A stretch of DNA of 33,971 nucleotides from Streptococcus sp. DD10 (lineage in GTDB: Bacteria; Bacillota; Bacilli; Lactobacillales; Streptococcaceae): contig NZ_KQ969164.1 of the NCBI RefSeq assembly GCF_001578805.1, forward strand, positions 1 through 33,971, written 5' to 3'. Under the pieces are notes generated by a model. It made no database searches. It was not told the DNA's origin and saw nothing but the letters and a program-made list of their open reading frames with translations. Shown here piece by piece: positions 3,669-23,801 of this stretch. A program made the translations under genes and the position numbers. Position 1 is the first letter of the stretch, and the number at the start of each line of letters is the position of its first letter.

Positions 3669-3862
3669 ATAATATACTTAAAACACTTTTTAATAAAATC
3701 TTTAAAAGTTTAACTGATTTTTCATACAAAATTTTCAAGCGAGAAACGAGCATCTCAATTTGAACTTCTACAATTCTATAAAAGAAACTGATTAAAAAAA
3801 TCTTATCTTCACATACAACATTCTTCCTCAGCTGAACTCTCGAGATTGTTTTGTCTATCGGT

Positions 3863-4885: not shown

Positions 4886-4913
4886 AAAAATCCTCACTAA
4901 AATGAGGATTTTT
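4886..4913. terminator. Bidirectional terminator between convergent transcripts
   Basis: AAAAATCCTCA (4886-4896) pairs perfectly with TGAGGATTTTT (4903-4913) around the 6-nt loop CTAAAA. T runs follow the stem in both directions. It starts 3 nt after the plus-strand glycosidase-like gene and 4 nt past the last gene of the polysaccharide operon, so it can end both transcripts. Confidence 0.9.
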
Positions 4914-4917
4914 TATC

Positions 4918-5970
4918 TTATTTTAAATTGTTCAATGCGGTAAGTAGGTAGTGACCATCACGAATACCTTTACCGACACGCTTGGTATTTTCAAGCAAAT
5001 CTTGGTAATCAGTATCTGAAAGATTGTCAATGGTAGCCTTCAAATCATGAAGCGACTCTACTGCAATCCCACAGCCATTCTCAAGTACAAAGTGAGACAA
5101 GGCTGACTGTTTCCAAACAACAAGCGGGAATCCTGATGCCAAGTAAAGTGAAGCTTTGTGAGAGTTGTTATAGCGAAGGTACTCGCCAAAAACACCACTA
5201 CATGTCTGAGCACTATCACCATCCCAGACAAGACCAAAACCACCCTCAAGGGCTGCAGGAAGCTCATCAGGTAGGAAGGAGCCAAAGTAGGTCTCATTCG
5301 CAAGTGCTCTGCTCTCGTCGAAGCCAACACCATAAAGGTTATAAGCAGGTTCTGCAGAAAGTGAGTAAAGATAACCAGCTTTTTCTTGTGCCAGATTACC
5401 AGCAACAATAATTGGCTGATTCTTACTTAGACCTGTCTTCTCTTGGAAATTTGGAATCAAATAGTCGAAAATGCCAAGGCTAACAATCTTAGCTTCCGTT
5501 ATCCCTTTATCCACCAAAACAGATTTCATAATTGGATTGTGGGCAATAATGCCATCAGCTACACCTAAAAGACCTGACTCCTGGATTTTCATTCGAACTC
5601 TATGTTTTAATGGAGCAGCTTGACTATTCATAAAACGAAGGGCATCCAAATCATGGATGATGAACTGAATTTTCACACCTCTTTTTCTTGCTTTTTTAAC
5701 AAGTAAAGTAGTGAAAAAACTATGATGAAGCATTGGAAATTGAATTAGAAGTTCATCCCCTTTATTCAAACGATTTAAAGACTGGCTGAATGATTTAGCC
5801 TTATGTATTTGAGACTTTATTATACTCATCTCGTACCAATTGTCAACTGAAAGAACCAAGGCTTGATAGCCCTCTCTCTTTACAATTTCTTCAACATCAT
5901 TACGAGCCTTATTTCCTGCATTTTTAACATTGTTATCGTGTAAAAATTCTTCTTTTAAATAGTATTTCAT
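4918..5970 (-). CDS. Putative galactofuranosyltransferase (Gtf3/WbbI-like)
   Basis: The 350-residue cytoplasmic protein looks like a GT-B glycosyltransferase of the group that contains beta-1,6-galactofuranosyltransferases and streptococcal Gtf3. Visible signs are NAGNKARND near residue 17, LLIQFPMLHHSFFTTLL near 73, FIIHDLDALRF near 103, GGFGLVWDGD near 244 and the acceptor/nucleotide-side stretch NNSHKASLYLASGFPLVVW near 268. It is the last gene of the polysaccharide operon, 10 nt after a Stealth gene and two genes after glf, which makes UDP-galactofuranose. I therefore infer transfer of galactofuranose to the repeat unit. The linkage and acceptor are not readable from the sequence. In oral streptococci a gene in this position is sometimes named wefE or similar; I leave the symbol open. 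A two-way terminator follows. Confidence 0.8.
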   Translation of the reverse strand: MKYYLKEEFLHDNNVKNAGNKARNDVEEIVKREGYQALVLSVDNWYEMSIIKSQIHKAKSFSQSLNRLNKGDELLIQFPMLHHSFFTTLLVKKARKRGVKIQFIIHDLDALRFMNSQAAPLKHRVRMKIQESGLLGVADGIIAHNPIMKSVLVDKGITEAKIVSLGIFDYLIPNFQEKTGLSKNQPIIVAGNLAQEKAGYLYSLSAEPAYNLYGVGFDESRALANETYFGSFLPDELPAALEGGFGLVWDGDSAQTCSGVFGEYLRYNNSHKASLYLASGFPLVVWKQSALSHFVLENGCGIAVESLHDLKATIDNLSDTDYQDLLENTKRVGKGIRDGHYLLTALNNLK

Positions 5971-5980
5971 CTCTTATTTC

Positions 5981-6973
5981 TCATTTTTCAAAAGCTGATT
6001 TTTCAGGATAGCGTTCTTGTAAGATTTCCTTAAAACGAATGATATTCTCCTCTTTAAAGTCAATATCATCATTGACACAAAGCAATTTTTTATGTTTATC
6101 TTTAAAAATACTCACTAACCTATCAACTTGATTTAGATCTATCGATTCTCCAAAATTTTTAGACATAGGATAAAATTGATCACTTTCAATCTGCCAATAC
6201 TGACAGATATATTGATTAACATCTACTTCGTAGTCTCTGATATGATTTCGAGACGTTTTATCTAACGTTTCTCCTTCAATTTTCCACAAATGTGCCAAGG
6301 TACTCTTTTTCATCGGTGTAGCTAAATGGTTGTGCACATATCCTGTTGGTCCCCATGGTAAAAGTAGTAAATTTTTTAAAACTAAATACCCATAGCGATA
6401 ATTAAAAAATTTCCAGGGCGAGGACTTTAGGGCCTTTTTTTTGGGGAAATGACGATAAATTAACTCAACATTTTTGTAATAAGTATTTGTATATGATGAC
6501 CAAGGGACCAAAGCATCATATACAGCTAAAAGCTTGGGTTGTCCATTCTTATAAAAATCCGAAGGCTGACTGTCTCTGATTAAGTACATATCATCATTGA
6601 AATACAAATAATTCTCCGACAATCCTTCAATCCGATGAAGATTAAGCTCAATAGCAGCAGAATTATAGGTAGGTAGGTACTCTTCAGGGATGAATTCCTT
6701 ATGAGTAATCCATCTGAGTTTCGGATGCTCTAAATTCAACCAGTCAGGCTTTTGCCCATTGGTAATTAAATAAACATTATTCACCCAAGGGGCATGCTTT
6801 TCAATCATTCGAAACCAGTAATTAAAAATTCCAAATTCACGGTATCTTAAATCTCCATCAACTAATTCATTAGAAACTGAGATTTGGCCTGTTACTTCTT
6901 GTTTCTCACGGATAAACTCTGGATCACTTCCATCGACCCAGAGGACAACGATATCAATTTTTTCTTCTGTCAT
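5981..6973 (-). CDS. Stealth-family sugar-1-phosphate transferase (distal copy)
   Basis: Stealth proteins transfer a hexose-1-phosphate to a growing glycan, giving a phosphodiester bridge; in oral streptococci WefC does this with GalNAc-1-phosphate. The 330-residue protein shows all four conserved regions in order: IDIVVLWVDGSDPEF at residues 6-20, YWFRMIEKHAPWVNNVYLIT with DWLN near 53-83, LSENYLYFNDDMYL near 118-131, a Ser/His-containing KKSTLAHLW region near 222 and KLLCVNDDIDF near residue 296. Its start overlaps the glf stop by four bases (ATGA), so translation is coupled to glf. A second, clearly related but different Stealth gene lies at 13410-14411 in the same operon. Which sugar each uses cannot be read directly; the neighbourhood of glf and the galactofuranosyltransferase suggests this one acts late in the repeat unit. 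Confidence 0.87.
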   Translation of the reverse strand: MTEEKIDIVVLWVDGSDPEFIREKQEVTGQISVSNELVDGDLRYREFGIFNYWFRMIEKHAPWVNNVYLITNGQKPDWLNLEHPKLRWITHKEFIPEEYLPTYNSAAIELNLHRIEGLSENYLYFNDDMYLIRDSQPSDFYKNGQPKLLAVYDALVPWSSYTNTYYKNVELIYRHFPKKKALKSSPWKFFNYRYGYLVLKNLLLLPWGPTGYVHNHLATPMKKSTLAHLWKIEGETLDKTSRNHIRDYEVDVNQYICQYWQIESDQFYPMSKNFGESIDLNQVDRLVSIFKDKHKKLLCVNDDIDFKEENIIRFKEILQERYPEKSAFEK

Positions 6974-8070
6974 TTACTAAATTCTTTCTCTACGACTTCT
7001 AAGGCACGCTCAATGACCACGTGCATGTCGTAGTATTTATAGTCTGCTAGACGTCCACAGAAGATGACCTTGTCATTTTTCTCAGCTTCTTCCTGGTACT
7101 TGGCAAACATAGCATTGTTTTTAGCATCATTGATTGGATAGTAAGGTTCATCTCCACGTTTCCAATCTGCTGGATATTCACGGGTGATGACAGTCTTAGG
7201 CTGGGTACCATACTCGAAATGCTTGTGCTCAATGATACGAGTATAAGGAATTTCACGTTCTGTGTAATTGACTACTGCATTACCTTGATGGTTTTCTTCA
7301 TCCAGGACTTCGTGTTCAAAATGAAGACTACGATACTCAAGCTCTCCGTGTTTGTAATCAAAATACTGGTCAATCATCCCTGTAAAGACAACTTTATCAG
7401 CTGAAGCTTCAAGCTCTTCACGATTGGCAAAGAAATCTACTCCAAGCTCTACTTCCACATCGCCTAGCATGTTTTCAATGATGACATTGTAACCACCGAT
7501 TGGAATCCCTTGGTAACGGTCATTAAAGTAGTTGTTATCAAAGGTCAAGCGAACTGGAAGACGTTTGATGATAAAGGGTGGAAGGTCTGTGGCAGAACGT
7601 CCCCACTGCTTTTCTGTATAGCCCTTAATCAACTTTTCGTAGATGTCTGGACCAATCAACTTGATAGCCTGTTCTTCAAGATTTTTAGGCTCAACATCCT
7701 TCATGTCAGCCGTTTGTTCCGCAATCTTGTCCTTAACTTCTTGAGGAGTCTTAGTACCCCACATGGCATAGAAGGTATTCATGTTGAAGGGAAGATTGTA
7801 AAGACTACCCTTGTAGTTAGCTACTGGTGAATTAATATAGTTATTAAATTCAGCGAACTGGTTGACATAGTCCCACACTTTTTTATTTGACGTATGGAAA
7901 ATGTGGGCACCGTACTTGTGAACATTAATCCCTTCCACTTCTTCACAGTAGATATTACCACCAATGTGATCCCGTTTGTCAATGACTTTTACTTTTTTAC
8001 CTCGTTTAGTAGCTTCGTGTGCGAAGATTGCTCCAGACAAACCAGCACCAACGATCAAATAATCGTACAT
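6970..8070 (-). CDS. glf: UDP-galactopyranose mutase
   Basis: Glf is a flavoenzyme that interconverts UDP-galactopyranose and UDP-galactofuranose, supplying the activated Galf for the polysaccharide. The 366-residue protein has the family's length and begins with the FAD-binding Rossmann motif DYLIVGAGLSGAIFAHEA, followed by VIDKRDHIGGN near residue 30 and KYGAHIFHTS near 52. A WGTKTPQE segment near 104, GYTEKQWG near 150 and a C-terminal GRLADYKYYDMH near 340 are also typical. An AAGGAG-type ribosome binding site precedes the ATG at 8068-8070. It lies 10 nt after wzx and overlaps the next Stealth gene by four bases. Its presence predicts Galf in the surface glycan. Confidence 0.97.
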   Translation of the reverse strand: MYDYLIVGAGLSGAIFAHEATKRGKKVKVIDKRDHIGGNIYCEEVEGINVHKYGAHIFHTSNKKVWDYVNQFAEFNNYINSPVANYKGSLYNLPFNMNTFYAMWGTKTPQEVKDKIAEQTADMKDVEPKNLEEQAIKLIGPDIYEKLIKGYTEKQWGRSATDLPPFIIKRLPVRLTFDNNYFNDRYQGIPIGGYNVIIENMLGDVEVELGVDFFANREELEASADKVVFTGMIDQYFDYKHGELEYRSLHFEHEVLDEENHQGNAVVNYTEREIPYTRIIEHKHFEYGTQPKTVITREYPADWKRGDEPYYPINDAKNNAMFAKYQEEAEKNDKVIFCGRLADYKYYDMHVVIERALEVVEKEFSK

Positions 8071-8080
8071 ATTTTTCTCC

Positions 8081-9496
8081 TTAGTTTTTCATTAACTGTT
8101 GTTTCAAATCTTTCATATCAACGACACGTAAGACAATAATCAAGACGATATAAATGATAGCACCAACAAGACCATCTACTGCTACATTAAGCATAGGATT
8201 AAATTGGACAAACATCTTAAAGACAAAGAGTCCAAGATACATGATAACTGATGCTAAGATAATTTTTGACATGGCTGGAAGGATTGAAACATCCTTGATG
8301 AATCTCCTTGAAAAATTCAATTGAATAACCCATACCAAAGCCTCTGTTAAAACTGATACAATGGATGCTCCGACAAAGCCAAATGGAGGAATCAACAAGA
8401 GATTAAATCCCACACTGACAACGGCTGGAATAGTCGTAGAGAGCATAAACTCACGATGTTTATTATGTGGAATCAAAATCTGGATTCCCATAATATTTGT
8501 CCAACCGATAAAGAACATCCTAAAGACCATAATAGCAATAGCAAGATAAGCCTCTTGGAAATCTTTCCCTAGGAAGAAACTCACAAAGTCCTTATTGACG
8601 ATCAAGAGACCTGCTATAATCGGGAAAATCACCAGATTATAAATCAAGAAAGACAACTCATGCATCTTGTTAACCGCCTTATGGTCACCACTAGACAAGA
8701 GTCCAGATACCCTAGGAAGCATCACACTTCCTAAAGACGTCACTAATGTTAAAAGGATATTGATAATCTTCAATGCCTGGTCATAAATACCGACATCATT
8801 GGTAGATGACAAGGCACCCAGCATGGTACGATCCAAAGTCACGTACAGTGAAATGGCAACCTGAGGAAGAAACAGCAAAATAACAGGTTTGAGATGTTTC
8901 TTAGCATAGTCTATGTCAAATTGAGGCTTACCAATATAAGACCTTGCTGGAAGCCACATACTCAACTGTCCTAGCAACTCGAAGAAGGTCAGAAGAAAAA
9001 CATAAAGATACAAATCATCCGGTGTTTTCACAAATAGGAAGATGGAAATAACTCCTAAGACCTTCACCGTTGTATTTCTTGCAGTAATACGACGAAAATC
9101 CTCCAAACCTTGGAATAACCAAGAAATGTCCATTCCTTTCGATATCAAGCTTAGTCCTAAAATATAGGCTACCAAATTCTGCATGGAAGGCAGAAGGAAA
9201 CACAAGATAGCGTATAAAATGATAGACAGAACGGTCGCTGCCAACTGAAGAGTGTAAATCCCCCAAAAATTTTTGCGAACATCCTTTCGATGCCCTGAAA
9301 TCTCCTTAGTTCCATAGTTAGCAACCCCCAAAGTCGCCAAAAGAATAAAGTAGGTCACAATAGAGTTAAAGTAACCATAAGTACCTAAATCTTTTGAACT
9401 AAAAATCCGAGTAACATAAGGGGTCGTAATGATTGGTAAAACAATGACCAGTAATTGATAGGAAAGATTATAGGCGTAATTTTTTAAAACTTTCAT
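8081..9496 (-). CDS. wzx: Wzx repeat-unit flippase
   Basis: Wzx moves the undecaprenyl-diphosphate-linked repeat unit from the inner to the outer face of the membrane. The 471-residue protein is hydrophobic throughout, with about 12-14 membrane segments, and belongs to the polysaccharide (MOP/MATE-like) exporter superfamily. The N-terminal stretch KNYAYNLSYQLLVIVLPIITTPYVTRIF followed by LGTYGYFNSIVTYF is typical; IPHNKHREFMLSTTIPAVV and LLIPPFGFVGASIVSVLTE near residues 345-385 are also family features. It sits between wzy and glf. A 49-nt gap separates it from wzy, the largest gap inside the operon, but I see no clear promoter or terminator there. Flippases usually match their own repeat unit, so this one should have travelled with the neighbouring wzy and transferases. 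Confidence 0.93.
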   Translation of the reverse strand: MKVLKNYAYNLSYQLLVIVLPIITTPYVTRIFSSKDLGTYGYFNSIVTYFILLATLGVANYGTKEISGHRKDVRKNFWGIYTLQLAATVLSIILYAILCFLLPSMQNLVAYILGLSLISKGMDISWLFQGLEDFRRITARNTTVKVLGVISIFLFVKTPDDLYLYVFLLTFFELLGQLSMWLPARSYIGKPQFDIDYAKKHLKPVILLFLPQVAISLYVTLDRTMLGALSSTNDVGIYDQALKIINILLTLVTSLGSVMLPRVSGLLSSGDHKAVNKMHELSFLIYNLVIFPIIAGLLIVNKDFVSFFLGKDFQEAYLAIAIMVFRMFFIGWTNIMGIQILIPHNKHREFMLSTTIPAVVSVGFNLLLIPPFGFVGASIVSVLTEALVWVIQLNFSRRFIKDVSILPAMSKIILASVIMYLGLFVFKMFVQFNPMLNVAVDGLVGAIIYIVLIIVLRVVDMKDLKQQLMKN

Positions 9497-9545
9497 AAGT
9501 ATATGACTCTGTTTAGACTTTCTAAATGATATACCTCTGCTTCAA

Positions 9546-10712
9546 TTACAAAAAATCTTTATCAGTCTTCATCACAAAGAGTCGACTAATCAATAGGATA
9601 AGAGGTGAGTAACGAAGAACAAGCATTTGGGGATCAAACATGCCATGAATGATCATAACCCCTAAGCAGGCAAGAATGATATCTTTTCGATTAGTTATAA
9701 AATAATTCATGACCCGTGTTAAAGCCAATAACATGAATGCACTAACAGCCAATCCATCAATTACGAGTAACTGCACAAATGAACTATCAATAAAGTTATA
9801 ATCGCTTGAATAGTTACCAAAAATATCCATGGTCGTAAATGAGATTGGTCGACCTAATAAGGAAACACCAAAATTTCGGAACCCTTGAACACTTAGTCTC
9901 AGACGGTTATGCGTAAATTGGTCAACTAGATGGAATAAATCACCAGTTGAATAGAAACAAAAATAGAGAGTAATGAACAATGCAATAATAAAACCATACT
10001 TAGCAAGATTTGCTGTTATGACATTACTATCTATGAAATCAAACTTAAAGACCTTCAGACTGAATAACGCATAAGTCAAAATCAAGAGACTTAGATAAAG
10101 TGGACTTGAGGTTGAAGTCTGTTGGTGCATATAAAATGTAGCAAACAGTAGAGCTAACAACTCTAGATAAGAAACTTTCTTTCCTCTGAACATTAAGTAA
10201 CTACATAGGGCAAAGAACATACGTTGAGAGGCAAAGGACACATAATTGAATCCTAAACTATAACGATAACCACTATCTGCACTCATCAACATATTTGAGA
10301 TAATGCCCATCTTACTAGCTAGAATAGTTACAAACAGCACTAAAAAGGTGGCAAAAGAAAAGGTCCCTAATAACTTCTTGAACTCTATATCCCTAGCTGA
10401 GAAAACCAACAGCAAAACGTTTATATCAGGAAAACCATCTCGATTTTTTGACACAATTAACATGGTCAAGGTAAATAATAAGAAAATTATTAATTCCTTC
10501 AAGTGGTATCTGAAATAATTTATGGTATCAGGGAGGTTAATGAGTTCCTTTATCGTAATCATGCCTATTGTAAAATACAGCAAGATACGATAGAGCGACA
10601 AAAAACCATCCAACCTTATAAAATAAGTTGTAGTTACCAGAGATGCAAATAATACCCAAACAAAGAGTGTAAATAAATAGATTTTCTCTGAGATAAAGCG
10701 ACTGCTATTCAC
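9546..10712 (-). CDS. wzy: Wzy polysaccharide polymerase
   Basis: Wzy joins repeat units outside the membrane into long chains. The 388-residue protein has about 10-12 membrane segments with little else conserved, as usual for Wzy. A large periplasm-side loop of about residues 265-315 (containing TGDLFHLVDQFTHNRLRLS and the stretch up to DIFGNYSSDYNFIDSSF) precedes the last membrane segments, and the NRLRLS... GR pattern is common in O-antigen polymerases. The start is GTG at 10710-10712, with GGAAAG about 4 nt upstream. Identification rests on topology and on position between the glycosyltransferases and wzx; no other polymerase candidate is present in the operon. The region is noticeably richer in A and T than the wzg-wchF part, which fits exchange between strains. 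Confidence 0.85.
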   Translation of the reverse strand: MNSSRFISEKIYLFTLFVWVLFASLVTTTYFIRLDGFLSLYRILLYFTIGMITIKELINLPDTINYFRYHLKELIIFLLFTLTMLIVSKNRDGFPDINVLLLVFSARDIEFKKLLGTFSFATFLVLFVTILASKMGIISNMLMSADSGYRYSLGFNYVSFASQRMFFALCSYLMFRGKKVSYLELLALLFATFYMHQQTSTSSPLYLSLLILTYALFSLKVFKFDFIDSNVITANLAKYGFIIALFITLYFCFYSTGDLFHLVDQFTHNRLRLSVQGFRNFGVSLLGRPISFTTMDIFGNYSSDYNFIDSSFVQLLVIDGLAVSAFMLLALTRVMNYFITNRKDIILACLGVMIIHGMFDPQMLVLRYSPLILLISRLFVMKTDKDFL

Positions 10713-10740
10713 AAGTACTTTCCATACCTTTCAATTATTC

Positions 10741-11733
10741 TTATAAATGTTGTAATATCATCTGCGTTTTTTTAAGGTAAATCAGAACAACATACATTCG
10801 ACATTTCAACAACAGTTTTATAAGTGGATTTAATACTGAAGAATCATTCTTAATAAAATCCGCTATATCCTGTTTCTTACAAATTTCTTTAACCAGCTTA
10901 ACTTTTTTATTAACTGGTAACTTTTGTTTGGTAATATTGTAGATATTACTCATCAAAATTCTTGCTTTTACATTATTATCAAGACTTGAATTGTCTAAAT
11001 GCCAATCCTCTAATAAGTTATCAACTAACTTCAATTCTTGAAGCTGATATTGAAGACGTTTGGGGTTATAGCCCGACATGGCGGAACCATTTCTACCAAT
11101 GACATAAACGTAATAGGAATCTTGAGAAAGATAAATCTTATTGACATTACGATAAACATCAAGATTAAAGCGGACATCTTCACCTAACTCATACTGCTCA
11201 AAAGAAAGGTTATTTTCAAGAAGAAATTCTCTGCGATAAATCTTATTCCAAACTGTGTACAGCATGTCCGATAAGAATAGTTCTTTAAATATCTTGATAA
11301 AACCATCCTTGTCGTAACTCCCTTTAAACGGAAGTGACTTTTCAGTACAGCTCTTCTCAGTTAAATCTTCCTCAAAAGAATTATAATAACTAAAAATAAC
11401 TAAATCTAAATCTGACACTAGCTTATCAGCAAAATCAGCAAAGAGATTCCCAACAAGATAATCATCACTATCAACGAAGTAGACAAACTCTCCCCTGGAT
11501 TTGGACAAGCCAAAATTACGTGCCGAGCCAACACCATGGTTTGCAATATGATAAACTGAGATATTTGAATACTCACTAGCATAAATATCGCAAATACTGC
11601 CGCTACTATCAGTAGATCCATTGTCTATCACTATAATCTCCAAGTCATTATAATGTTGAGAAATAATACTTTTCAAACAACGATCAATGTATTTCTCGAC
11701 ATTATAAACTGGAATAATAACAGAAAATTTCAA
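10741..11733 (-). CDS. GT2-family glycosyltransferase
   Basis: This 330-residue inverting glycosyltransferase has the GT-A fold. It begins MKFSVIIPVYNVEKYIDRCL, followed by IIVIDNGSTDSSG (residues 33-45), GVGSARNFGL near 67 and the metal-binding DSDD near residue 88. The C-terminal half carries YELGEDVRFNLDVYRN near 180, which resembles the acidic catalytic-base region of the family. It should add one sugar to the lipid-linked repeat unit on the cytoplasmic side. The donor cannot be told from the sequence. It lies directly between another GT2 gene (20-nt gap) and wzy (28-nt gap). IDNG instead of the more usual VDDG in the second motif is a small oddity. Confidence 0.87.
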   Translation of the reverse strand: MKFSVIIPVYNVEKYIDRCLKSIISQHYNDLEIIVIDNGSTDSSGSICDIYASEYSNISVYHIANHGVGSARNFGLSKSRGEFVYFVDSDDYLVGNLFADFADKLVSDLDLVIFSYYNSFEEDLTEKSCTEKSLPFKGSYDKDGFIKIFKELFLSDMLYTVWNKIYRREFLLENNLSFEQYELGEDVRFNLDVYRNVNKIYLSQDSYYVYVIGRNGSAMSGYNPKRLQYQLQELKLVDNLLEDWHLDNSSLDNNVKARILMSNIYNITKQKLPVNKKVKLVKEICKKQDIADFIKNDSSVLNPLIKLLLKCRMYVVLIYLKKTQMILQHL

Positions 11734-11753
11734 TTTTGACTCCTAAAATAATA

Positions 11754-12728
11754 TCAGAAAACGTTTTGAATACTGAAGGCTAGTTTTAAAACTTTAAGTC
11801 TAAACAGTACATATTTTAACTTATTTGGTTGGTCTTTCATTTGAGAAAGAGAAACATTATTTTTAAGCAATTCTTGCTTCACTTCATCAGTAATGTTTCT
11901 ATATTTTTTATCTAATTTAGATTTATACAAACTTGCTAATATATGAACCAATCCGTTTACATAATAACGTTGTGACATTTGCAACTCTTCTTTACTTAAT
12001 TGTGAACGGACAAACTCAGAATAAAAAACTTCTTTGTAGAATCCAAACATATCACTAAATTTCTTTTCATTCCATGACTGAGTAATAGAATCAGGATTAT
12101 CGATTAGATAGTGATAATACTTTTGATTTGTCGCATAAACCATCTTAGCTGAAAGAAATAGTTTGTAATTGGTGCCAAGATCTTCATAGTATTTACCAAT
12201 AGGAAACTGAATGTCATTATCAGTAAATAAAGACTTTCTATAGATTTTGTCATTAGCAAAACCAGTAATATAACTATGGCTAAGCAGCTGTACAAAAGCA
12301 TCTTTACCCTCAAAAACTTGAGTCACTAATGAATCCGAAACGATAGCATCTTCTTCACCCTTTACAAACTCTCGATTAAAAGAGATAATATCAAACTTCT
12401 GGGATTCCACCACTTCTGCTAACGCTATAAAGGTGTCTGGTTCAATCCAATCATCTGAATCAGGGAAATAGACATATTCTCCCTCAGCATGAGAAATACC
12501 AGTGTTACGAGCTGCAGATAGCCCACCATTCTTCTTATGAATAACTGAGATAAAGTCATACGCTTTAGCATAGGCATCACAAACTTGAGGAGAACGATCG
12601 GTGCTTCCGTCATCAACTAACAGAATGTCATAATCTTTCCACTCTTGAACAAGAATGCTTTCAATACAACGCTTTAGATATTTTTCAACATTATAAACTG
12701 GAATGACGACGGTTAAAAGTGGTTTCAT
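11754..12728 (-). CDS. GT2-family glycosyltransferase
   Basis: This 324-residue GT-A glycosyltransferase begins MKPLLTVVIPVYNVEKYLKRC. It continues with ILLVDDGSTDRSP (residues 35-47), GGLSAARNTGI near residue 68, and DSDDW near 90, where the aspartates bind the metal and nucleotide sugar. KYYEDLGTNYKLFLSA near residue 180 matches the catalytic-base region. Only the N-terminal third closely resembles the next gene; the C-terminal halves differ, so they are not a recent duplication and probably use different acceptors. It is likely to add an internal sugar of the repeat unit. Gaps to both neighbours are about 20 nt. Confidence 0.88.
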   Translation of the reverse strand: MKPLLTVVIPVYNVEKYLKRCIESILVQEWKDYDILLVDDGSTDRSPQVCDAYAKAYDFISVIHKKNGGLSAARNTGISHAEGEYVYFPDSDDWIEPDTFIALAEVVESQKFDIISFNREFVKGEEDAIVSDSLVTQVFEGKDAFVQLLSHSYITGFANDKIYRKSLFTDNDIQFPIGKYYEDLGTNYKLFLSAKMVYATNQKYYHYLIDNPDSITQSWNEKKFSDMFGFYKEVFYSEFVRSQLSKEELQMSQRYYVNGLVHILASLYKSKLDKKYRNITDEVKQELLKNNVSLSQMKDQPNKLKYVLFRLKVLKLAFSIQNVF

Positions 12729-12749
12729 AGATTCTTCACCTAAATGTTT

Positions 12750-13388
12750 TTATGTTAAGTCTGCTCCACCCTTATTCAACCAAGTTACAACATTAAAATA
12801 ACGGTGGTAAGTTTTTAAATCGATTCCAACATGCCCTTGTTTTTCAGCTGATTTAAAGTGTATCAATGAAGGTAAGTTGCTATGATTCTTTGAAGAGAAG
12901 ATAACCTTACTCTTATATGGAAGCTCCTCAAACTCTTTCATCAACTCATAGGTGCAGGCATCATTATCATTGAACTTAAAATACAAATTATCCCAATGTA
13001 TTCTCTTCAAACGGCGTTGCCATTTTTGTGTAGCTTCTTCTTCATCTGCGTAATGCAAAAAATGAAGTTCAATATCATCAAGAAGTGCAAGGGGATAAGC
13101 ATTATCAAAGTTTTTGATATATTTTGATTCCTTAACAAATTTCAGGGAGATATTTCCACTTAAATAGTGTTTTAAATTCTTGAGCATCTTGATGTAATCA
13201 GGCGAAAAGACAAACATTCCTACAAATGGTGTTTGATAAGGTAACCCCAGTTCCTGATAAACTTTTCCAGCCCAACAATTATCACAAATGATTGTGAAGT
13301 TTTTATTTTTGAGTCTTCGTCTAGGAATAAAATTAATAATTGGATAAACGATAGGTTTTATTCTATCTTTTAGTGATTTTCTTTCCAT
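12750..13388 (-). CDS. DUF1919-family polysaccharide biosynthesis protein
   Basis: The 212-residue protein shows the DUF1919 pattern: FTIICDNCWAGKVYQELGL at about residues 31-49, then TPFVGMFVFSPDYIKMLKNL near 54-73, and FKFNDNDACTYELMKEFEELPYKSKVIFSS in the middle. Members occur in capsule and exopolysaccharide clusters of many bacteria, but I know of no firmly established activity. A basic N-terminal tail precedes the domain; no membrane segment or signal peptide is visible, so it should act in the cytoplasm. It follows a Stealth gene (21-nt gap) and precedes a GT2 gene. A modification of the repeat unit or its precursor, or an unusual transferase step, is possible. The function is open. 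Confidence 0.75.
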   Translation of the reverse strand: MERKSLKDRIKPIVYPIINFIPRRRLKNKNFTIICDNCWAGKVYQELGLPYQTPFVGMFVFSPDYIKMLKNLKHYLSGNISLKFVKESKYIKNFDNAYPLALLDDIELHFLHYADEEEATQKWQRRLKRIHWDNLYFKFNDNDACTYELMKEFEELPYKSKVIFSSKNHSNLPSLIHFKSAEKQGHVGIDLKTYHRYFNVVTWLNKGGADLT

Positions 13389-13409
13389 AATCTCCTAATT
13401 ACCTTTGTT

Positions 13410-14411
13410 TTATAATTCAAAAGTACTCTTTTCAGGTAGAAACTCATCAAATGAAGCAATGAATTCTTTCATTACCTTATCTTCATCCTGAATGTTAAAG
13501 CCATCATTAATACACATAATTTTATATTTCTTCGAAACTAAAAGATTCCAGAAATCTGAATTTGCATCATCCAAAGAAAATAGTCCACCAATTTTTGAAT
13601 CACCAATAGCATATTGTCCACTAGCAATTTGCCAATATTTAAAAAGCCAAATATTTGTATCTGCTGGATTCCTAAAACGGCTAGCTGATGTTTTTTCTAA
13701 GATTTCCTTTTCTTTCTCCCATAAAAGAGCAAATGTTGATTTTAAAAGAGGATATGGAAGATGGCTTTCCCAGAAGCCACAAATAAATTTACTATTTTTA
13801 TAAAGTAAAGATTTTATAACTTGCTTTAAGCCCTGTTTCAGAGAAAAGAACTTCCCATTTTTCAAGATTTCTTCTTTGCTGAAATAACTTGTTATTATCT
13901 CCATATTATTAATTTGAAAGTTTCCTGTTCCAAATCGTTCAGGAATAATAGGAGATAAAGCAGTATTATACTTAGGTAGCCCTTTCTCAGAGAAAAAATC
14001 ACTTGGTGAAACTGGTGCCGTTAAATACATATCGTCGTTAAAACAAACAAAATGTTCTGACAAATTTGGTATTTTATGAATATTACATTCAATGGCATTA
14101 GATGAAAACACAGGTAGATAGTCATTGTTGATGATTTCTTTATGATCTATAACTTCTAATTTACTATTATCTAAATCTAACCAATCAGGTGTTTGATTGT
14201 CAGTTACTAAATAAACTTTATTCACCCAAGGTGCAAACTTCTCAACACCTCTAAACCAATACTTAAACGTCCCCCATTCACGGTACGCTTTATCGGAGTT
14301 CATATTATTTTCTGATGTTGTAAAAGTAGAGTCATATTTACTCTTTTTAGCTCTCCAATTAGGATCGCTCCCATCAACCCAGGTTACAACAAAATCTATC
14401 GGAAAATTCAT
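13410..14411 (-). CDS. Stealth-family sugar-1-phosphate transferase (proximal copy)
   Basis: This 333-residue protein is the second Stealth enzyme of the operon and comes first in transcription order. The conserved regions are all present: [15 protein letters not shown] at residues 5-19, [20 protein letters not shown] with TPDWLD near 51-80, [14 protein letters not shown] near 117-130, [11 protein letters not shown] near 222 and [10 protein letters not shown] near residue 295. In the last motif the usual DD is DG. It resembles the distal copy over the whole length, including the C-terminal PEKS(T/A)FE, yet differs at many positions. WefC-type enzymes of oral streptococci are the nearest relatives I know. 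Two such genes suggest two phosphodiester links per repeat unit, or two enzymes of which one has been replaced in function. Confidence 0.87.
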
Positions 14412-14429: not shown

Positions 14430-15575
14430 TTACTTCTTATATAACTCCGAGAAATTTCGAATGTAACTTTGTAATGAAAAGAGTTCTTTTTGGCGTTTGA
14501 CAGATGCCTTGCCAAATTGCTCTCTCTTCTCGGTGTCATCAGCCAATTCTTGAATAGCCTTAGACAATTCTGCAGGCTGATTTGGTGTGGCAAGAAGGCC
14601 ATTTTTACCTTCCTTAACCATTTCACAGACACCACCATGACGGTAGCCGACTACGGGTTTGCCACAAGCCATTGATTCGAGAACTACAGTTGGTAGAGGA
14701 TCTGGATTGGTACTTGGCAAGACAAAGATATCAAACATATTATAGAGCTCTGTCGTCTTGCTATAATAATCGATACGTTTAATCTGCCCAGCTACAGGTG
14801 AATCTGATATAGCCTTCTCCAGCTCATCAACTCGCCATTCTTCACCTTCAAAAGCACTCCCTGCCAGAAAGGCTACTGCTTTTGGATTAGCCTTTAAGAT
14901 TGGAGTGACAGCTTCTAGGAAGTCGCCTTGCCCTTTCCAAGCGTTCACTCGTCCAACCATTCCGATAACCAAGGCATCCTGTGCGATACCAAACTGGTCA
15001 CGAACTGCACTAGCATCCATTTCATGATAGACGGCATTGTCAACACCATTATAGATAACTTGAACTTGGTCATTTTTTACAAAGCGAGACTGCTTGACGT
15101 GGTTAGCCACAGCATTTGAAACTGTCACAATCGTATCAGCATAACGCCCCATCAAAAAGTTGATAAAATCAGAGATTGCTTTTGGTTTGACGATAATTTC
15201 ATGCACATGCCAAATCAAAGGTAATTTCAACTTACGTTTGAGATAAATCCCCTCAAGTACCGCAGTCGTATTATTGTGAATAAGAGTAATGCCATTATCC
15301 TTAGCATATTTAGCAATTTGCTTTGAATAACGATTATAAGAGCCAAAATACTCAAGAATTCCCTTAGAATTAAAATATTTACGGCGCAAGATTGGATAAT
15401 CGATAACTTTTACCTTAGCCCCAACCTTTTCCAATGCACTCACTAAGACACCATCGTTAGGCAAGATGACATGAGCTTCAAAGGCATCTTTATCCAGCCC
15501 CTTAATCAACTCCAACAAAACCTTGTCAGCACCATACATTTCGGCACCAGCGTGAAGATATAAAATTTTCTGCAT
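14430..15575 (-). CDS. GT4-family glycosyltransferase, probable third-sugar transferase
   Basis: The 381-residue protein is a retaining GT-B glycosyltransferase. The N-terminal half begins KILYLHAGAEMYGADKVLLE, with the glycine-rich acceptor-side loop; HNNTTAVLEG near residue 99, HVHEIIVKP near 123 and the SNAVANHVK segment follow. The C-terminal donor half includes YNGVDNAVYH near 175, GMVGRVNAWKGQGDFLEA near 200, FVLPSTNPDPLPTVVLESMA near 282 with the conserved glutamate, and GKPVVGYRHGGVCEMV near 305. It directly follows wchF (2-nt gap) in the place where oral streptococci have the transferase that adds the third sugar. Some databases would call it wefA; I leave the symbol open. The sugar is not readable from the sequence. 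Confidence 0.9.
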   Translation of the reverse strand: MQKILYLHAGAEMYGADKVLLELIKGLDKDAFEAHVILPNDGVLVSALEKVGAKVKVIDYPILRRKYFNSKGILEYFGSYNRYSKQIAKYAKDNGITLIHNNTTAVLEGIYLKRKLKLPLIWHVHEIIVKPKAISDFINFLMGRYADTIVTVSNAVANHVKQSRFVKNDQVQVIYNGVDNAVYHEMDASAVRDQFGIAQDALVIGMVGRVNAWKGQGDFLEAVTPILKANPKAVAFLAGSAFEGEEWRVDELEKAISDSPVAGQIKRIDYYSKTTELYNMFDIFVLPSTNPDPLPTVVLESMACGKPVVGYRHGGVCEMVKEGKNGLLATPNQPAELSKAIQELADDTEKREQFGKASVKRQKELFSLQSYIRNFSELYKK

Positions 15576-15577: not shown

Positions 15578-16750
15578 CTATCCTTTAAGTATGTTCTCGT
15601 AGTCTGTAACAATTTTTTCCCAAGTAAAGGCTTCAGTGATGCGATTACTTGATTTTTGATTGAGATCTTCGATTGCTTGAGCGTCCAATTGCTCAGCTTG
15701 ATCGATCACACTTGCCAATTGGTCTTTTTTCCAATAGAGAGCACCATCTTCACCGACTTCACGGTTAAAGCCAACATCCAGCAAGAGATTGAGCTTAGTA
15801 GACTCAAGAGCCTCAAGAAGGGAGGGATTGGTACCACCTACTTCATGACCATGGAAGTAAGCAAAGGCATTCTCACGAATGTATTTGAGCAATTCTTGGT
15901 CATAAACAGTTCCAACAAATTTCACACGAGAATCCTTGTCAAAACCAGTCTCCTGACGCAACTTGTCGTAGAACTTGTTTTCTTCAACATTTGTAATAAG
16001 AACAAAGTCCTTGTCAGAGTTTGATGCCATAAAGCCACGAATCATAGCCTCATAGTTATTCTCAGGCACAAAACGGCCTACAACAAGGTAATAATTGTTT
16101 TCAATGACGCCCTTTTCAAAATACCATGTGCGAACCTTATCATCAACCTTAGTTAATCGAGATTTAGTTGTATCTGTCCCATAGGCAATGTAAGTTGTCT
16201 GAGGACGATACTTCGCATAATCCTTTTGAATATATGCTTCGATGTTCTTACTATCACAGATTAAAAGATCCGCATGTTTCACCATGAGTTGCTCAGAAAT
16301 TTTCCAATATTTACGAACCGGAAGACTCCATTTGGCACGAAGCCATTCATGACCGTCTGGGTTAACCATAAGGGTACCACCGATAGCCTTGATTTTCTTT
16401 TTAATACCTGAGATGAATGGACCAATTCGGCAGGCCAAAACATAAAAGATTGGTGCTTGGTCATTGTTTTCCTTAGCAATTTCAATGGCCTTATTAAGAG
16501 CTGCAATATCATAAGCAATAGCACGTGCAGGTCCGATATTTGGGACATCGATATTGTAGCATTTAGCACCGTTATGTTCGAAAGTGTCTGCTGTAATACC
16601 TGATTTAGCAGAGTTTTCACGCATACAAGCTACATAATATTGGATATCTTTGTCTTGTTGGAACTCTGTTAACTTCTCAACAAAGGTCTCAAATCCACCA
16701 TATTTGGCAGGGATACCCTTGGAACCAACGATATAAACTGTTTTTGTCAT
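15578..16750 (-). CDS. wchF: WchF rhamnosyltransferase (DUF1972 family)
   Basis: WchF (Cps2T) adds the second sugar, rhamnose, from dTDP-rhamnose onto lipid-linked glucose and thereby commits the lipid to capsule synthesis. The 390-residue protein begins VYIVGSKGIPAKYGGFETFVEKL, the hallmark of the family. Further signs are NVPNIGPARAIAYD-like DVPNIGPARAIAYD near residue 68, MVNPDGHEWLRAKW near 127, VVGRFVPENNYEAMIRGF near 222 and FHGHEVGGTNPSLLEAL near residue 293, containing the donor-binding glutamates. It follows wchA by 31 nt. Rhamnose supply requires rmlACBD, which is not in the window, although many streptococcal loci carry it at the end of the operon. Confidence 0.95.
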   Translation of the reverse strand: MTKTVYIVGSKGIPAKYGGFETFVEKLTEFQQDKDIQYYVACMRENSAKSGITADTFEHNGAKCYNIDVPNIGPARAIAYDIAALNKAIEIAKENNDQAPIFYVLACRIGPFISGIKKKIKAIGGTLMVNPDGHEWLRAKWSLPVRKYWKISEQLMVKHADLLICDSKNIEAYIQKDYAKYRPQTTYIAYGTDTTKSRLTKVDDKVRTWYFEKGVIENNYYLVVGRFVPENNYEAMIRGFMASNSDKDFVLITNVEENKFYDKLRQETGFDKDSRVKFVGTVYDQELLKYIRENAFAYFHGHEVGGTNPSLLEALESTKLNLLLDVGFNREVGEDGALYWKKDQLASVIDQAEQLDAQAIEDLNQKSSNRITEAFTWEKIVTDYENILKG

Positions 16751-16781: not shown

Positions 16782-18152
16782 TTACTTCGCTCCATCCTTC
16801 ATCACTACTACCTTAATTGTTTTCAATAAAATTTTCACATCAGTCCAGATGGTCCAACCGTCCATGTAAGCTACATCAAGTTTGACCACCTCATCAAAAT
16901 CGGTAATTTCGCTACGCCCACTAACTTGCCAAAGTCCAGTAATTCCAGGTTTGAAACTAAGTCGACGTTTTTGACCCGGCGTATAAGACTCATACTCATC
17001 GAGTGTAGGTGGTCGTGTTCCAACCAAGCTCATATCCCCTTTAAGAACATTCCAAAATTGAGGCAGTTCATCAAGGCTTGTTTTACGAATGAAATGACCA
17101 ATTGGAGTAATACGCGGATCATTGTCCATTTTGAACATTCCACCAGTCATTTGATTTTGATCCATTAAATCTTTTTTTATCTCCTCAGCATCCACACGCA
17201 TAGAGCGAAACTTGTAAAACTTGAAAACACGTCCATTTTGCCCTACACGATTTTGGACGAAAATAGCTGGACCTCCGTCACGTTTAATAACAGGAACTAG
17301 GAAGATTCCTGCGATACCACAGAAAAACAAACCAACCAAGGCACCACAAATGTCAAGTGCACGCTTTGCTAAAACATGTCCATAGTTATAAAATTCATTT
17401 GAGAAAGTAACGACACTAAATCCGCTTAATTGATGAATTTCTTTCTCACCAGTACCAAGGAAATTCAAGGCATTGATGTTGACAGATACAGGAATTCCCA
17501 TCATTTCAAAGTCTGATACAAAATCAAGAATCATATACTTATCACTTGGTAAATTGATGAAGACTTCATCTACCACTGCTTGAGTAGCATAACTAATGAG
17601 ATTCATCAGAGGAACGTTTTTGATAAACTCATTTGTAAAGTGCACGTCATCTACTACACAAGCAGCTGTTATTTGCCCATCCAAATTATTTGACATTTTA
17701 GACATGGTCTTATCCAGACGGTTTTTGTTTGTGACCAATAGGATGTTTCGTTTATTCTTCCGACGAGTATAAATCGATCCTCTAAAAATACGAATGGACA
17801 AATTAGCTGCAAACATCAGTACGCCGTTCACCACGAGAAAGGCCATCAGCCCCCTACGAGAAATAGCAGGCGTATCGAGATCCATCACGAAGATAATAAA
17901 AGTGACAAAAACTCCCAATAGAACCGTATACTTAATCGTTTGAATCAATTCATCTATCATGCCTCTATATTTGAAGTTGACATAATAGTTGCCCACATAA
18001 TAAACCACCATATGGGCAATTCCAAAGAGAACGATGCCATTTCTTCGCAAATCTGAATCTGGGATACAAAAGACAATTCCGCTAGACAGCAGTATTACTA
18101 ACAGCTGTAAAACTGCAACTTCTAATTTACGAATATCTAACTTTTCTTGCAT
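16782..18152 (-). CDS. wchA: WchA undecaprenyl-phosphate glucose-1-phosphate transferase
   Basis: WchA (CpsE) starts the repeat unit by placing glucose-1-phosphate on undecaprenyl phosphate at the inner face of the membrane. The 456-residue protein has four or five N-terminal membrane segments (about residues 10-125), a CoA-binding-like middle domain and, after a further hydrophobic segment near 265-290, the C-terminal bacterial sugar transferase domain. Its signatures are visible: NRVGQNGRVFKFYKFRSM near residue 305, TSLDELPQFWNVLKGDMSLVG near 365 and GLWQVSGRS near 415. Length and architecture match the pneumococcal enzyme. It is 20 nt downstream of wze. The middle of the operon changes from conserved regulatory genes to serotype-specific genes after wchF. 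Confidence 0.96.
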   Translation of the reverse strand: MQEKLDIRKLEVAVLQLLVILLSSGIVFCIPDSDLRRNGIVLFGIAHMVVYYVGNYYVNFKYRGMIDELIQTIKYTVLLGVFVTFIIFVMDLDTPAISRRGLMAFLVVNGVLMFAANLSIRIFRGSIYTRRKNKRNILLVTNKNRLDKTMSKMSNNLDGQITAACVVDDVHFTNEFIKNVPLMNLISYATQAVVDEVFINLPSDKYMILDFVSDFEMMGIPVSVNINALNFLGTGEKEIHQLSGFSVVTFSNEFYNYGHVLAKRALDICGALVGLFFCGIAGIFLVPVIKRDGGPAIFVQNRVGQNGRVFKFYKFRSMRVDAEEIKKDLMDQNQMTGGMFKMDNDPRITPIGHFIRKTSLDELPQFWNVLKGDMSLVGTRPPTLDEYESYTPGQKRRLSFKPGITGLWQVSGRSEITDFDEVVKLDVAYMDGWTIWTDVKILLKTIKVVVMKDGAK

Positions 18153-18172
18153 GTTCTCCCCCTAAATGATTC

Positions 18173-18865
18173 TTATTTCTTACCGTAGTTACCGTAGGAA
18201 CCGTAATTCCCGTAGGAACCATATTGTTCAAGTTTCGTATCGTATTTGTTTAAAACAACACCTAAAAATGGGGTACCAGTGTGTTCTAACTGTTCTCTTG
18301 CTTTTTGTACTTCTCGGCGACGAGTTTCCCCAGAATCTGTAACTAGCATCGTTGCATCACACTTTTGTGAAATGATAGCAGCATCAATCACTACACCAAT
18401 CGGTGCTGTATCAACAATGATATAATCATAATACCGACGCAAAGTCGTCAGCATTGTCACAAAATTTTCACTCTGCAAGAGCGCTGTTGGATTTGGAGAC
18501 ACTTGACCAGACTGGATAACAAAGAGGTTTTCTACATTGGTGTCACACAGTCCGTTAGAAAGGTCAGCATTCCCAGAAAGGAAATCTGTTAAGCCAGTGA
18601 TTTTCTCGCGAGACTTGAAAACTCCTGACATAACTGAATTACGGATATCCGCATCAATAAGAAGCGTTTTATATCCTGCACGAGCAAAAGCAATGGCGAT
18701 ATTAATCGAAGTTGTTGACTTTCCTTCTCCTGGTTTCACCGATGAGATCGTAACAACTTCGAGATTATTTCCGCTGAGTTGGATATTGGTACGAAGAGCA
18801 TTATAGTACTCTTCTGCTTTTTGGAATAAATCCAAACGTTTTTGTGCAATTTCTAAAGTTGGCAT
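18173..18865 (-). CDS. wze: Wze/CpsD bacterial tyrosine kinase
   Basis: Wze is the cytoplasmic kinase that, with the membrane adaptor Wzd, autophosphorylates on C-terminal tyrosines and so controls polysaccharide chain length and attachment. The 230-residue protein has Walker A SSVKPGEGKST at residues 41-51, Walker A' LLIDADIRN at 68-76 and Walker B YIIVDTAP near 147. The tail carries five tyrosines spaced exactly three residues apart (215, 218, 221, 224, 227) in a YG-x pattern. At DNA level this is an imperfect 18-bp repeat, which could gain or lose units by slippage. It lies 11 nt after wzd. The partner phosphatase is Wzh, encoded in the same operon. Confidence 0.97.
   Translation of the reverse strand: MPTLEIAQKRLDLFQKAEEYYNALRTNIQLSGNNLEVVTISSVKPGEGKSTTSINIAIAFARAGYKTLLIDADIRNSVMSGVFKSREKITGLTDFLSGNADLSNGLCDTNVENLFVIQSGQVSPNPTALLQSENFVTMLTTLRRYYDYIIVDTAPIGVVIDAAIISQKCDATMLVTDSGETRRREVQKAREQLEHTGTPFLGVVLNKYDTKLEQYGSYGNYGSYGNYGKK
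18182..18223 (-). repeat. Imperfect 18-bp tandem repeat in the wze tail
   Basis: The 42 bp encode Tyr215 to Gly228 of Wze. Two units of YGSYGN are followed by a third partial unit YG. The units differ at a few third codon positions, so the repeat is not recent, yet it remains suitable for in-frame expansion or contraction in 9- or 18-bp steps. Confidence 0.8.
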
Positions 18866-18876
18866 ACTAGCTCCTA

Positions 18877-19569
18877 TTATAATTTATCTATATTGGGAAT
18901 AACTCCAAGTAAAGTCAGTTTCATGGTATCTTCGACATCTTCTGGACGTTTCACACGGTCATCCAAAATCTCTGTTAACAAGACAACTACAGTAATCACT
19001 GCGAAACCTCCCACAAATCCTAATAAAACATTACGGCGGATGTTGGGCGAAGATGGAGTTGTTGCAGGAATCGCTTCTTCCAATGTTGTTACATCAGACA
19101 CTCGAGTGACTGCAATAATCTTTTGTGCAGCTACTTCACGCAGAGCATTAGCAATACGACTAGCCTCTTCTGGTGTGCTATCTTCTACTGTGATAGATAC
19201 GATACGAGTATCGGTTGGAACTTGTACTGAAATTTTCTTCGTCAATTCTTGTATCGACAAATCCAACTTCAAGTCGCTGATGAGCTGGTTGAGTACATCC
19301 TGCGACAAAATAATCTCTCGGTAATCTTTTACTAGGTACGTTCCCGCTTGAAGATCTTGGTTCGTCAACCCTGGATTATCTGATTGGCTACGATTTACCA
19401 CGTAGATACGAGTAGTTGAGCTATACTCAGGCGTCACAACGAACATGCTGTAACCTAGTGCGACAATAGAAGTGAAGAGAGAGACAAGTAAGATTAAAAA
19501 CTTTCTTCTCCATAGCAATTTTAGCAAGGACATAACGTCAATTTCAATGGTTTCTTTTTGTTGATTCAT
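18877..19569 (-). CDS. wzd: Wzd/CpsC chain-length determinant adaptor
   Basis: Wzd is the membrane adaptor that activates the Wze kinase and takes part in chain-length control and cell-wall attachment. The 230-residue protein has two membrane segments, at about residues 24-44 and 182-203, enclosing an extracellular Wzz-like domain. Features include [18 protein letters not shown] at the first segment, [16 protein letters not shown] near 83, and [18 protein letters not shown] with the proline-rich stretch before the second segment. The short cytoplasmic end ([11 protein letters not shown] and [11 protein letters not shown]) is where these adaptors contact the kinase. It is 8 nt after wzh and 11 nt before wze, as in other streptococcal loci. 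Confidence 0.96.
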
Positions 19570-19577
19570 GGTTTCTC

Positions 19578-20309
19578 CTAAATTAGTTGATCATTAAGTA
19601 GCAAACTGGCATTATCATAAAACAATTCCCGAGCTCGCTTTTCGCCATATTGTTTGTTTATAATTTGATAAGCTTCTTTCATATAAGGAGGACGGTCATC
19701 CAGATTATGCATATCACTTGCTATAAAATGAACTAAACCCTTCTCCAAGAAAAACTGAGCACGCTTTTTCATGAACTTATACTTATCTCCAAAGAGTTTT
19801 GGTTTGAGAACACTAAAGCTATTTATCTGGATATAGCACCCCATATGAATCAGTTCCTGAACTCGTTGTGCCTCATTTTCTAGAGCGTGGTAACGCTCGA
19901 TGTGAGCTACAACTGGTGTAATCCCCAAACGCAAAACATCTCCTAGTGCCTTATGGATTTCCTTCCACGGCGTATTCATGCTAAACTCGATAAGAGCATA
20001 GCTAGTGCCAGCCAAGGTGGGAATGATTTTTTGCTCCAGTTTTTCTAGAACATCACTAGTGAAGTAAATCTCCGCACCATATAACACTGTCAAATCAACC
20101 GCCACTTCCTTGGCAAGTTCTTGGACATGCTGGAAGTTGGTGACGATTTTCTCCTCTGATGTTTCAAACATCCCTTTGCGACGATGGGAGGTAGCGACAA
20201 TTGTCCTCACCCCTTGATCATAAGCATACTGAAGAAGTGCCTTGGACTCCGCTCTGCTTTTGGGTCCATCATCCACATCAAACACAATATGAGAATGAAT
20301 ATCAATCAT
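19578..20309 (-). CDS. wzh: Wzh/CpsB tyrosine-protein phosphatase (PHP family)
   Basis: Wzh is a manganese-dependent PHP-family phosphatase that removes phosphate from the Wze tail and so resets the chain-length control cycle. The 243-residue protein begins [18 protein letters not shown], where H5 and H7 are metal ligands. Other ligand-bearing stretches are TSHRR near residue 41, LYGAEIYF near 76, VAHIERYH near 135 and FIASDMHN near residue 195. The length is as expected for CpsB. It follows wzg with only one base between stop and start, so translation is probably coupled. Confidence 0.96.
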
Positions 20310-20310
20310 T

Positions 20311-21774: not shown

Positions 21775-21805
21775 CGTATACTCCTATATAAACTTTATCA
21801 ATTCT

Positions 21806-22172: not shown

Positions 22173-22766
22173 TTAACTTTCTCTCTTTAATTGTTCATAG
22201 TTTTCTTGTCCATCATTGAGTTTATCCCAAATAATGACTGCTCCAGCCTTAAGAGATTTTTGTACATCAATGATGCGTTGATTGGATGAACCACGAAACT
22301 GGAGCATGAGATTTTTCTTGGTCCGGTCAAAACGCCCATCCACCAGGATGTCAATCAAGGACAACAATTCCAGCTTGTCCTCGGTTTCCAACAGCATTTC
22401 CTCCCAAGTATAGCCCGTCCAAGACCAGATGTCCTTATCAGGCAATTCGTGGCGAATCCGCTTGACCAGAGGCAAGAGGATACCGGTGTTAAGAAAAGGC
22501 TCTCCACCCAAGAGGGTCAGCCCCTGCACGTAAGGTTGTGCCAAATCAGCCATGATCTGTTCTTCTAATTCTGCTGTATAGGGAATCCCTGCATTGAAAG
22601 ACCAGGTTGCCACATTGTAGCACCCTTCGCAGTGAAACATGCAACCCGCCACATATAGGGAATTACGAACACCCTCACCATCAACGAAGTTAAAGGCCTT
22701 ATAGTCAATGATGCGCCCCTGACTCAACTCCTTACTCTTCCATTCTTGTGGTTTGGGATTGTTCAT
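22173..22766 (-). CDS. nrdG: Anaerobic ribonucleotide reductase activating protein
   Basis: NrdG is a radical SAM iron-sulfur enzyme that creates the glycyl radical on NrdD so that deoxyribonucleotides can be made without oxygen. The 197-residue protein has the cluster-binding cysteines in CMFHCEGC near residue 42 (CX3CX2C), NFVDGEGVRNSLYVAG just before, and the SAM-binding glycine-rich LTLLGGEPFLN near residue 83. Length is as expected. Its start lies inside the end of the preceding acetyltransferase gene (35-bp overlap), so translation is probably coupled. It closes the nrdD operon and is followed by a terminator. Confidence 0.96.
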   Translation of the reverse strand: MNNPKPQEWKSKELSQGRIIDYKAFNFVDGEGVRNSLYVAGCMFHCEGCYNVATWSFNAGIPYTAELEEQIMADLAQPYVQGLTLLGGEPFLNTGILLPLVKRIRHELPDKDIWSWTGYTWEEMLLETEDKLELLSLIDILVDGRFDRTKKNLMLQFRGSSNQRIIDVQKSLKAGAVIIWDKLNDGQENYEQLKRES

Positions 22767-23277: not shown

Positions 23278-23286
23278 AACAGCTCC

Positions 23287-23778: not shown

Positions 23779-23801
23779 AAAACCTCCTAAATATGAAGAA
23801 A

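Follow-up and report, generated by a model that had tools for sequence, protein, structure and literature searches.

Two Stealth phosphotransferase genes of separate clades in one polysaccharide operon of Streptococcus sp. DD10

The Wzy-type polysaccharide operon of Streptococcus sp. DD10 (contig NZ_KQ969164.1) contains two genes for Stealth hexose-1-phosphate transferases, referred to as StP and StD. The operon was analysed in a 33,971-nucleotide stretch of DNA, hereafter the window, where it lies on the minus strand, flanked by nrdG (22173-22766) and by a plus-strand gene (3851-4882) that we take to be DUF2233-like. It consists of 16 co-directional genes with intergenic gaps of no more than 49 bp, in the order wzg, wzh, wzd, wze, wchA, wchF, a GT4 glycosyltransferase gene in the wefA position, StP, a DUF1919 gene, two GT2 glycosyltransferase genes, wzy, wzx, glf, StD and a wefE-like gene. 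Judging from sequence comparisons, StP was gained as a single gene by recombination into a locus type that otherwise carries only StD. The leading reading is that of a recombinant operon with two intact Stealth enzymes and a repeat unit with two phosphodiesters, and its chances are considered about even. The new element is the presence of two Stealths of different clades in one operon, with a clear single-gene origin, in an otherwise known kind of locus. The two genes are located as follows.

13410..14411, minus strand: StP, Stealth hexose-1-phosphate transferase of 333 aa, encoded immediately 3' of wefA, which is the WefC slot; assigned by Pfam, clade, context and AlphaFold model
5981..6973, minus strand: StD, Stealth hexose-1-phosphate transferase of 330 aa between glf and wefE; assigned by Pfam CR1 and CR2, clade and context

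A preliminary description, made from the DNA letters alone, had placed Stealth proteins of 330 and 333 residues here; minus-strand open reading frames of 330 and 333 codons were found at those positions, with the motifs it named. Both proteins match the Stealth conserved regions CR1 (PF17101) and CR2 (PF11380) above the Pfam cut-off, with Stealth_CR2 E-values of 2.8e-40 for StD and 3.1e-43 for StP. In StP, CR3 scores 34.1 bits (cut-off 24.2) and CR4 26.3 bits, just below its cut-off of 27.4, with C-I-N-D aligned. In StD, neither CR3 nor CR4 has a Pfam match at E 0.001, and both are visible by alignment alone, where R246 and C-V-N-D match an R and a C-x-N-D shared without exception by 20 aligned Stealths. 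The statement that both proteins carry all four regions therefore stands for StD by alignment and falls short by Pfam, for these two regions and, narrowly, for CR4 of StP. The common plan combined with wide divergence was described correctly: the two proteins are 39% identical over 335 columns and both end in PEKS-x-FE, the last motif being NDG in StP and NDD in StD.

Stealth_CR2 was matched in 65 of 284 Streptococcus genomes, one per species, 63 of which have one gene and two of which (the window's genome and G041) have two. A whole-genome search at E 0.001 gave no third match in the window's genome. Both genes stand in one operon in the window's genome only (1 of 65 Stealth-bearing genomes). 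G041 was rejected as a precedent, as wzg, wzh, wzd, wze and wchA sit between its two Stealth genes. In the G041 region (C7:326001-366000, L080-L081), two sets of polysaccharide genes lie in tandem. Either set includes a single Stealth gene together with wchA, wzx, glf and a WefE-like gene; wzg-wzh-wzd-wze open the second set but were not seen ahead of the first within the slice. One Stealth gene per locus, given in the preliminary description as normal for the known examples, is indeed the rule in the genus, the two of G041 belonging to separate adjacent sets. An order sample and a phylum sample, which overlap each other and the genus set, had matches in 34 of 395 and 7 of 398 genomes, respectively, with two only in the window's genome. 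A non-exhaustive full-text literature search recognised no printed precedent for two Stealths in one polysaccharide operon. The excerpts of PMC3989065, PMC5974469 and PMC3640971 treat one Stealth gene or Stealth polymerases generally (the other PMC numbers below likewise refer to excerpts), and PMC12348895, tried as a two-phosphodiester precedent, concerns synthetic compounds. Pneumococcal serotype 7B, with wcrK according to PMC5111408 and wcwK according to PMC5028725, would be a two-gene case if both genes were present and both were Stealth genes.

The loci of 64 other genomes and the window supplied 67 Stealth genes for alignment; those of G024, G144, G148 and G206, broken or cut off, were left out, giving 63 streptococcal rows. 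Mutants of CpsY indicate that E305, N322, D324 and R419 matter (PMC10668966). Their counterparts by alignment are E108, N125, D127 and R247 in StP and E109, N126, D128 and R246 in StD. Across the 63 rows, E108, D126, D127 and R247 (StP numbering) are invariant, position 125 is N in 57 rows, S in four and G in two, and the N of C-x-N-D is replaced by E in one row. The AlphaFold model of StP (pLDDT, predicted local distance difference test, 81.7) matches GNPTAB and CpsY chains with Z of 28-33 (32.7 to 7sj2, 29.4 to 8j2n), the best other chain reaching 10.9; as modelled, StP has the GNPTAB/CpsY fold.

Neither StP nor StD shows decay at the sequence level. The ratio of non-synonymous to synonymous divergence (dN/dS) of StP is 0.11 to G078 and 0.15 to G082, the comparison with G204 being saturated, and that of StD is 0.07-0.09 to four relatives. 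StP has no changes at 183 clade-invariant columns; StD has two at 175 (N214H and N265D), neither at the CpsY catalytic residues. NDG is found in all 19 rows of the StP clade. Of the 63 rows, 28 have G after C-x-N-D, 18 have D and 16 have T, S, E or N. Because NDG is fixed in the StP clade and is also present in the solved, active CpsY, it is not a sign of decay. The suggestion that one enzyme had decayed is thus not supported, given the intact reading frames, the dN/dS values of 0.07-0.15, the conserved catalytic residues and the occurrence of NDG as a clade trait and CpsY state.

A tree of both proteins, proposed in the preliminary description, was built from the 63 rows, none of which is labelled wefC, and separates StP and StD into two clades. 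The StP clade comprises 19 rows with a support of 100/100, and the StD clade 15 rows with a support of 100/99. The deep branch between the tree halves has 91/94, which is under the program's starred level, and several rows are long-branched. Since StP and StD belong to different, fully supported clades, they are not tandem duplicates, and duplication of one Stealth gene was rejected. The two clades also occupy different slots. Sixteen of the 18 other StP-clade genes lie directly 3' of wefA, and two directly 3' of a 333-aa gene in the wefB position (wefB-like). The slot between glf and wefE holds all 14 other intact genes of the StD clade. In receptor polysaccharide (RPS) loci wefC directly follows wefA or wefB (PMC5462765), and this is the position of StP; StD, between glf and wefE and in a different clade, is placed otherwise. 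The label 'WefC-type', which had been applied to both, fits StP by its slot and is too broad for StD. The alternative gene wefF of type 2G loci (PMC2147599) may belong to the StP clade.

The origin of StP can be traced by comparison with two genomes, G182, which has only the StD-type gene, and G078, which has only the StP-type gene. The G182 operon is collinear with the window minus StP, with a wefA-DUF1919 gap of 11 bp versus 1,041 bp in the window. In blocks of 100 bp, the identity of wefA is 93-100% to G182 and 84-94% to G078, that of StP to G078 is 89-99% (96-98% in 8 of 10 blocks), and DUF1919 is about equally distant from both. Over the whole gene, counting synonymous and non-synonymous changes, wefA differs from G182 at 20 of 1143 bases (98% identity) and from G078 at 141 of 1143 (88%), and StP differs from G078 at 39 of 999 (96%). 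Synonymous divergence (dS) of wefA is 0.07 to G182 and 0.68 to G078, and that of StP is 0.15 to G078 and 0.19 to G082. Because StP is 96% identical to G078 while the adjacent wefA is 98% identical to G182 and only 88% to G078, StP came in as a single gene by recombination. All other StD-type loci have one Stealth match each and no StP; therefore, a gain in the window lineage is simpler than losses elsewhere. The sequence shows that a locus with StD alone, as in G182, acquired StP in the WefC slot through exchange with a donor resembling G078/G082. Resolved to 100 bp, the two change-over points fall where wefA ends and within the beginning of the DUF1919 gene.

The same data bear on an assembly error, by which StP would have been wrongly joined into the contig through a mixed culture or misassembly. 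The genome assembly is a draft in 84 contigs, and the arrangement is found in only 1 of 284 genus genomes. However, the wefA-StP-DUF1919 spacing is as in G078 while wefA is not that of G078, StP blocks are 97% identical at best to the fetched loci, and the stated contamination is 1.19%, so that such an error is considered highly improbable. Most of the remaining operon is 80-99% identical to G182, StP and the wzx end excepted. The Wzy gene is G182-like at 92-95% nucleotide identity; the wzx end is not, its best match being G176 with 81%. From wzg to the 5' half of wchA (17100-21800), nucleotide identity to the compared loci is 70-80% at best, with some blocks of the regulatory half (about 17600-21800) unmatched, which places a further apparent change-over point inside wchA.

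The other features of the operon are listed below. Several genes are named by their place in the order.

18173..21774, minus strand: wze, wzd, wzh and wzg, putative regulatory genes; names from gene order
16782..18152, minus strand: WchA, putative initiating sugar-1-phosphate transferase; name from gene order
15578..16750, minus strand: WchF, beta-1,4-rhamnosyltransferase; Cps2T equivalog, over cut-off
14430..15575, minus strand: GT4 glycosyltransferase, WefA by position; 98% nucleotide identity to G182
12750..13388, minus strand: DUF1919 protein, 212 aa; 3' of StP in the window and G078, directly 3' of wefA in G182
11754..12728, minus strand: GT2 glycosyltransferase a (GT2a); by family search
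10741..11733, minus strand: GT2 glycosyltransferase b (GT2b); by family search
9546..10712, minus strand: Wzy polymerase, by position only; 97% aa identity to the same gene in G182
8081..9496, minus strand: Wzx flippase; Polysacc_synt
6970..8070, minus strand: Glf, putative UDP-galactopyranose mutase; name from its place in the locus
4918..5970, minus strand: WefE-like beta-1,6-galactofuranosyltransferase; NCBIfam NF007326, 2.9e-88, below its cut-off
4886..4913, no strand assigned: terminator-like stem, 12 pairs on the minus and 11 on the plus strand, just 3' of the wefE-like gene; pattern match only

The gene order, with wzg-wze beside nrdG followed by wchA, wchF, wefA, Wzy/Wzx, glf and wefE, is that of coaggregation receptor polysaccharide loci, several of the names being themselves given by order. 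Polymers of this class are also defined by a host-like motif, GalNAc-b1-3-Gal or Gal-b1-3-GalNAc. The StD start and the glf stop overlap by 4 bases. The Wzy-position protein has no family match in Pfam or NCBIfam. Inside the operon, 60 promoter-like sites were counted versus 61.5 in shuffled sequences, i.e., no excess. Among the 17 other genomes that carry an StD-type gene, DUF1919 adjoins wefA in 10. A DUF1919 fragment was seen 3' of StP in G082. Its closest solved relative is the uncharacterised protein 2g6t (by profile search, which also gave one match at E 0.74), and its predicted structure has a pLDDT of only 34.3. Outside the operon, two adjacent similar acetyltransferase-like genes (22732-23829; GNAT-type by eye) lie between nrdG and a large gene (24094-26304) that by eye is an anaerobic ribonucleotide reductase.

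In the proposed assembly, WchA, WchF and WefA would build a lipid-linked trisaccharide, and StP would add hexose-1-phosphate to the WefA sugar, as WefC does. The later glycosyltransferases would extend the StP product, StD would attach another hexose-1-phosphate close to the outer end, galactofuranose would come from the WefE-like enzyme, and the G182-type Wzy would polymerise the unit. The resulting repeat would have two phosphodiester bridges and one sugar more than the G182 polymer. Donors, acceptors, the order of steps and the acceptance of the StP-extended intermediate by the glycosyltransferases are presumed here. WefA, the expected maker of the StP acceptor, is present and is 97% identical to WefA of G082, which also precedes StP; the G182-type second half needed for StD is complete in the window except for an acyltransferase; and in G078 StP occurs together with DUF1919 and related GT2 genes. 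Placement of StP and StD in different slots suggests different acceptors. In the boldest reading, one recombination event converted a repeat with one phosphate into one with two. This would be a serotype change brought about in nature by one gene, with two distantly related Stealths of different acceptor specificity working in one assembly line, and the literature searches made here yielded no earlier example of a Wzy-type streptococcal polymer with two hexose-1-phosphate bridges made in this way. The reading as a whole is credited with slightly less than an even chance.

Both enzymes could instead be active and compete or use alternative acceptors, giving mixed repeat units or a sub-stoichiometric second phosphate. 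G182 and G078 share wefA, DUF1919 and related GT2 genes, so that the two enzymes would normally serve alternative pathways with a common front half. However, the slots differ in 32 of 32 intact clade relatives, again pointing to different acceptors, and the locus has a single, G182-like Wzy; a mixture is judged unlikely.

Several points weigh against a two-phosphodiester repeat. Its proposal draws on genes rather than on polysaccharide chemistry, and it presupposes that the GT2 enzymes of the locus would accept an StP-extended intermediate. The proposed pathway leaves DUF1919 unaccounted for, a gene that 7 of the 17 other StD-type genomes do not have next to wefA. Measured against wefA, the arrival of StP is recent, and the constraint seen in its low dN/dS was therefore mostly exerted in the donor. 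Finally, StD-type genes are interrupted in 3 of the 17 genomes: G148 (a one-contig genome) has frames of 214 and 110 aa, G144 has 254 aa and G206 has two pieces (L137, L138, L134). These three genes stood outside the tree and were assigned by best match, that of G206 at only 56-71%. Their breakage means that loss of the Stealth step is tolerated in nature, and it hints at repeated loss of the StD step. The recent insertion of StP and the interrupted StD-type genes would both agree with one enzyme being idle here, either StP, a recent passenger with an unextended product, or StD, having become redundant, and the polymer would then have one phosphodiester. Yet StP and StD are intact and closely spaced in the operon, the catalytic positions are unchanged, StP does not deviate at clade-invariant columns, and capping an unextendable intermediate would presumably be costly. 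An idle enzyme is accordingly regarded as rather unlikely, and the two-phosphodiester repeat is kept as the leading reading.

Streptococcal cps-locus Stealth enzymes are known from S. mitis groups smI-smIII and from S. infantis (wcwK/wefC) (PMC5111408). In the receptor polysaccharides of oral streptococci, the lectin-binding motifs are bordered by phosphodiesters, and having or lacking one gene, for example wefB, distinguishes RPS types (PMC2147599). The phosphodiesters are the product of Stealth enzymes. StP shares the slot after wefA with WefC of the receptor polysaccharide locus (PMC5462765). Genes from loci of wefC order, with a wefB-like gene (G121, G124) or without it (G119, G131 and others), show 71-75% identity to StP; none of them is labelled wefC. 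In contrast, the WefC locus has wefD where the window has DUF1919 and two GT2 genes, and the window adds a second Stealth before wefE. CpsY (M. tuberculosis) and GNPTAB share the fold of the StP model and the catalytic residues, and NDG is common to CpsY and StP; however, identity over the fold is 26-28%, and their donors and acceptors are different. The S. mitis SK137 capsule locus is a Wzy locus with glf, a WefE-like glycosyltransferase and a Stealth to which glucose-1-phosphate addition was assigned, but one such transferase is described there and its acceptor oligosaccharide is different (PMC5111408). The S. parasanguinis FW213 capsule was set aside: the excerpt of PMC10986556 presents a 19B-like locus with a phosphodiester, does not contain 'stealth' or 'wef', and apparently deals with a different locus type.

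The closest known loci are those with one Stealth gene. Amino acid identities of the window to the G182 locus are 97% for WchF, 99% for WefA, 91% for DUF1919, 93% for GT2a, 88% for GT2b, 97% for Wzy, 86% for Wzx, 98% for Glf, 87% for StD and 89% for the WefE-like protein; the relatives of this locus (L033-L037) are from Streptococcus sp. bf_0095, S. parasanguinis and S. australis. Unlike the window, G182 lacks StP and has a 332-aa acyltransferase (PF01757) between wzx and glf. The acyltransferase gene (L136:7637-8635) was seen in G182 and several related loci, and the wzx-glf gap of the window is 10 bp (8070-8081). As the window lacks this gene, acetylation of the polymer may differ too. The G078 locus has the same WefA-StP-DUF1919-GT2a-GT2b order, with 96% amino acid identity for StP and 95% for DUF1919; it differs in lacking StD, in a Wzy-position gene unmatched to the window Wzy and in wefA (88% nucleotide identity). 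The window, G182 with StD only and G078 with StP only form a natural three-way comparison, which would allow testing what determines acceptor specificity and whether gaining one gene can alter the charge of a surface polymer.

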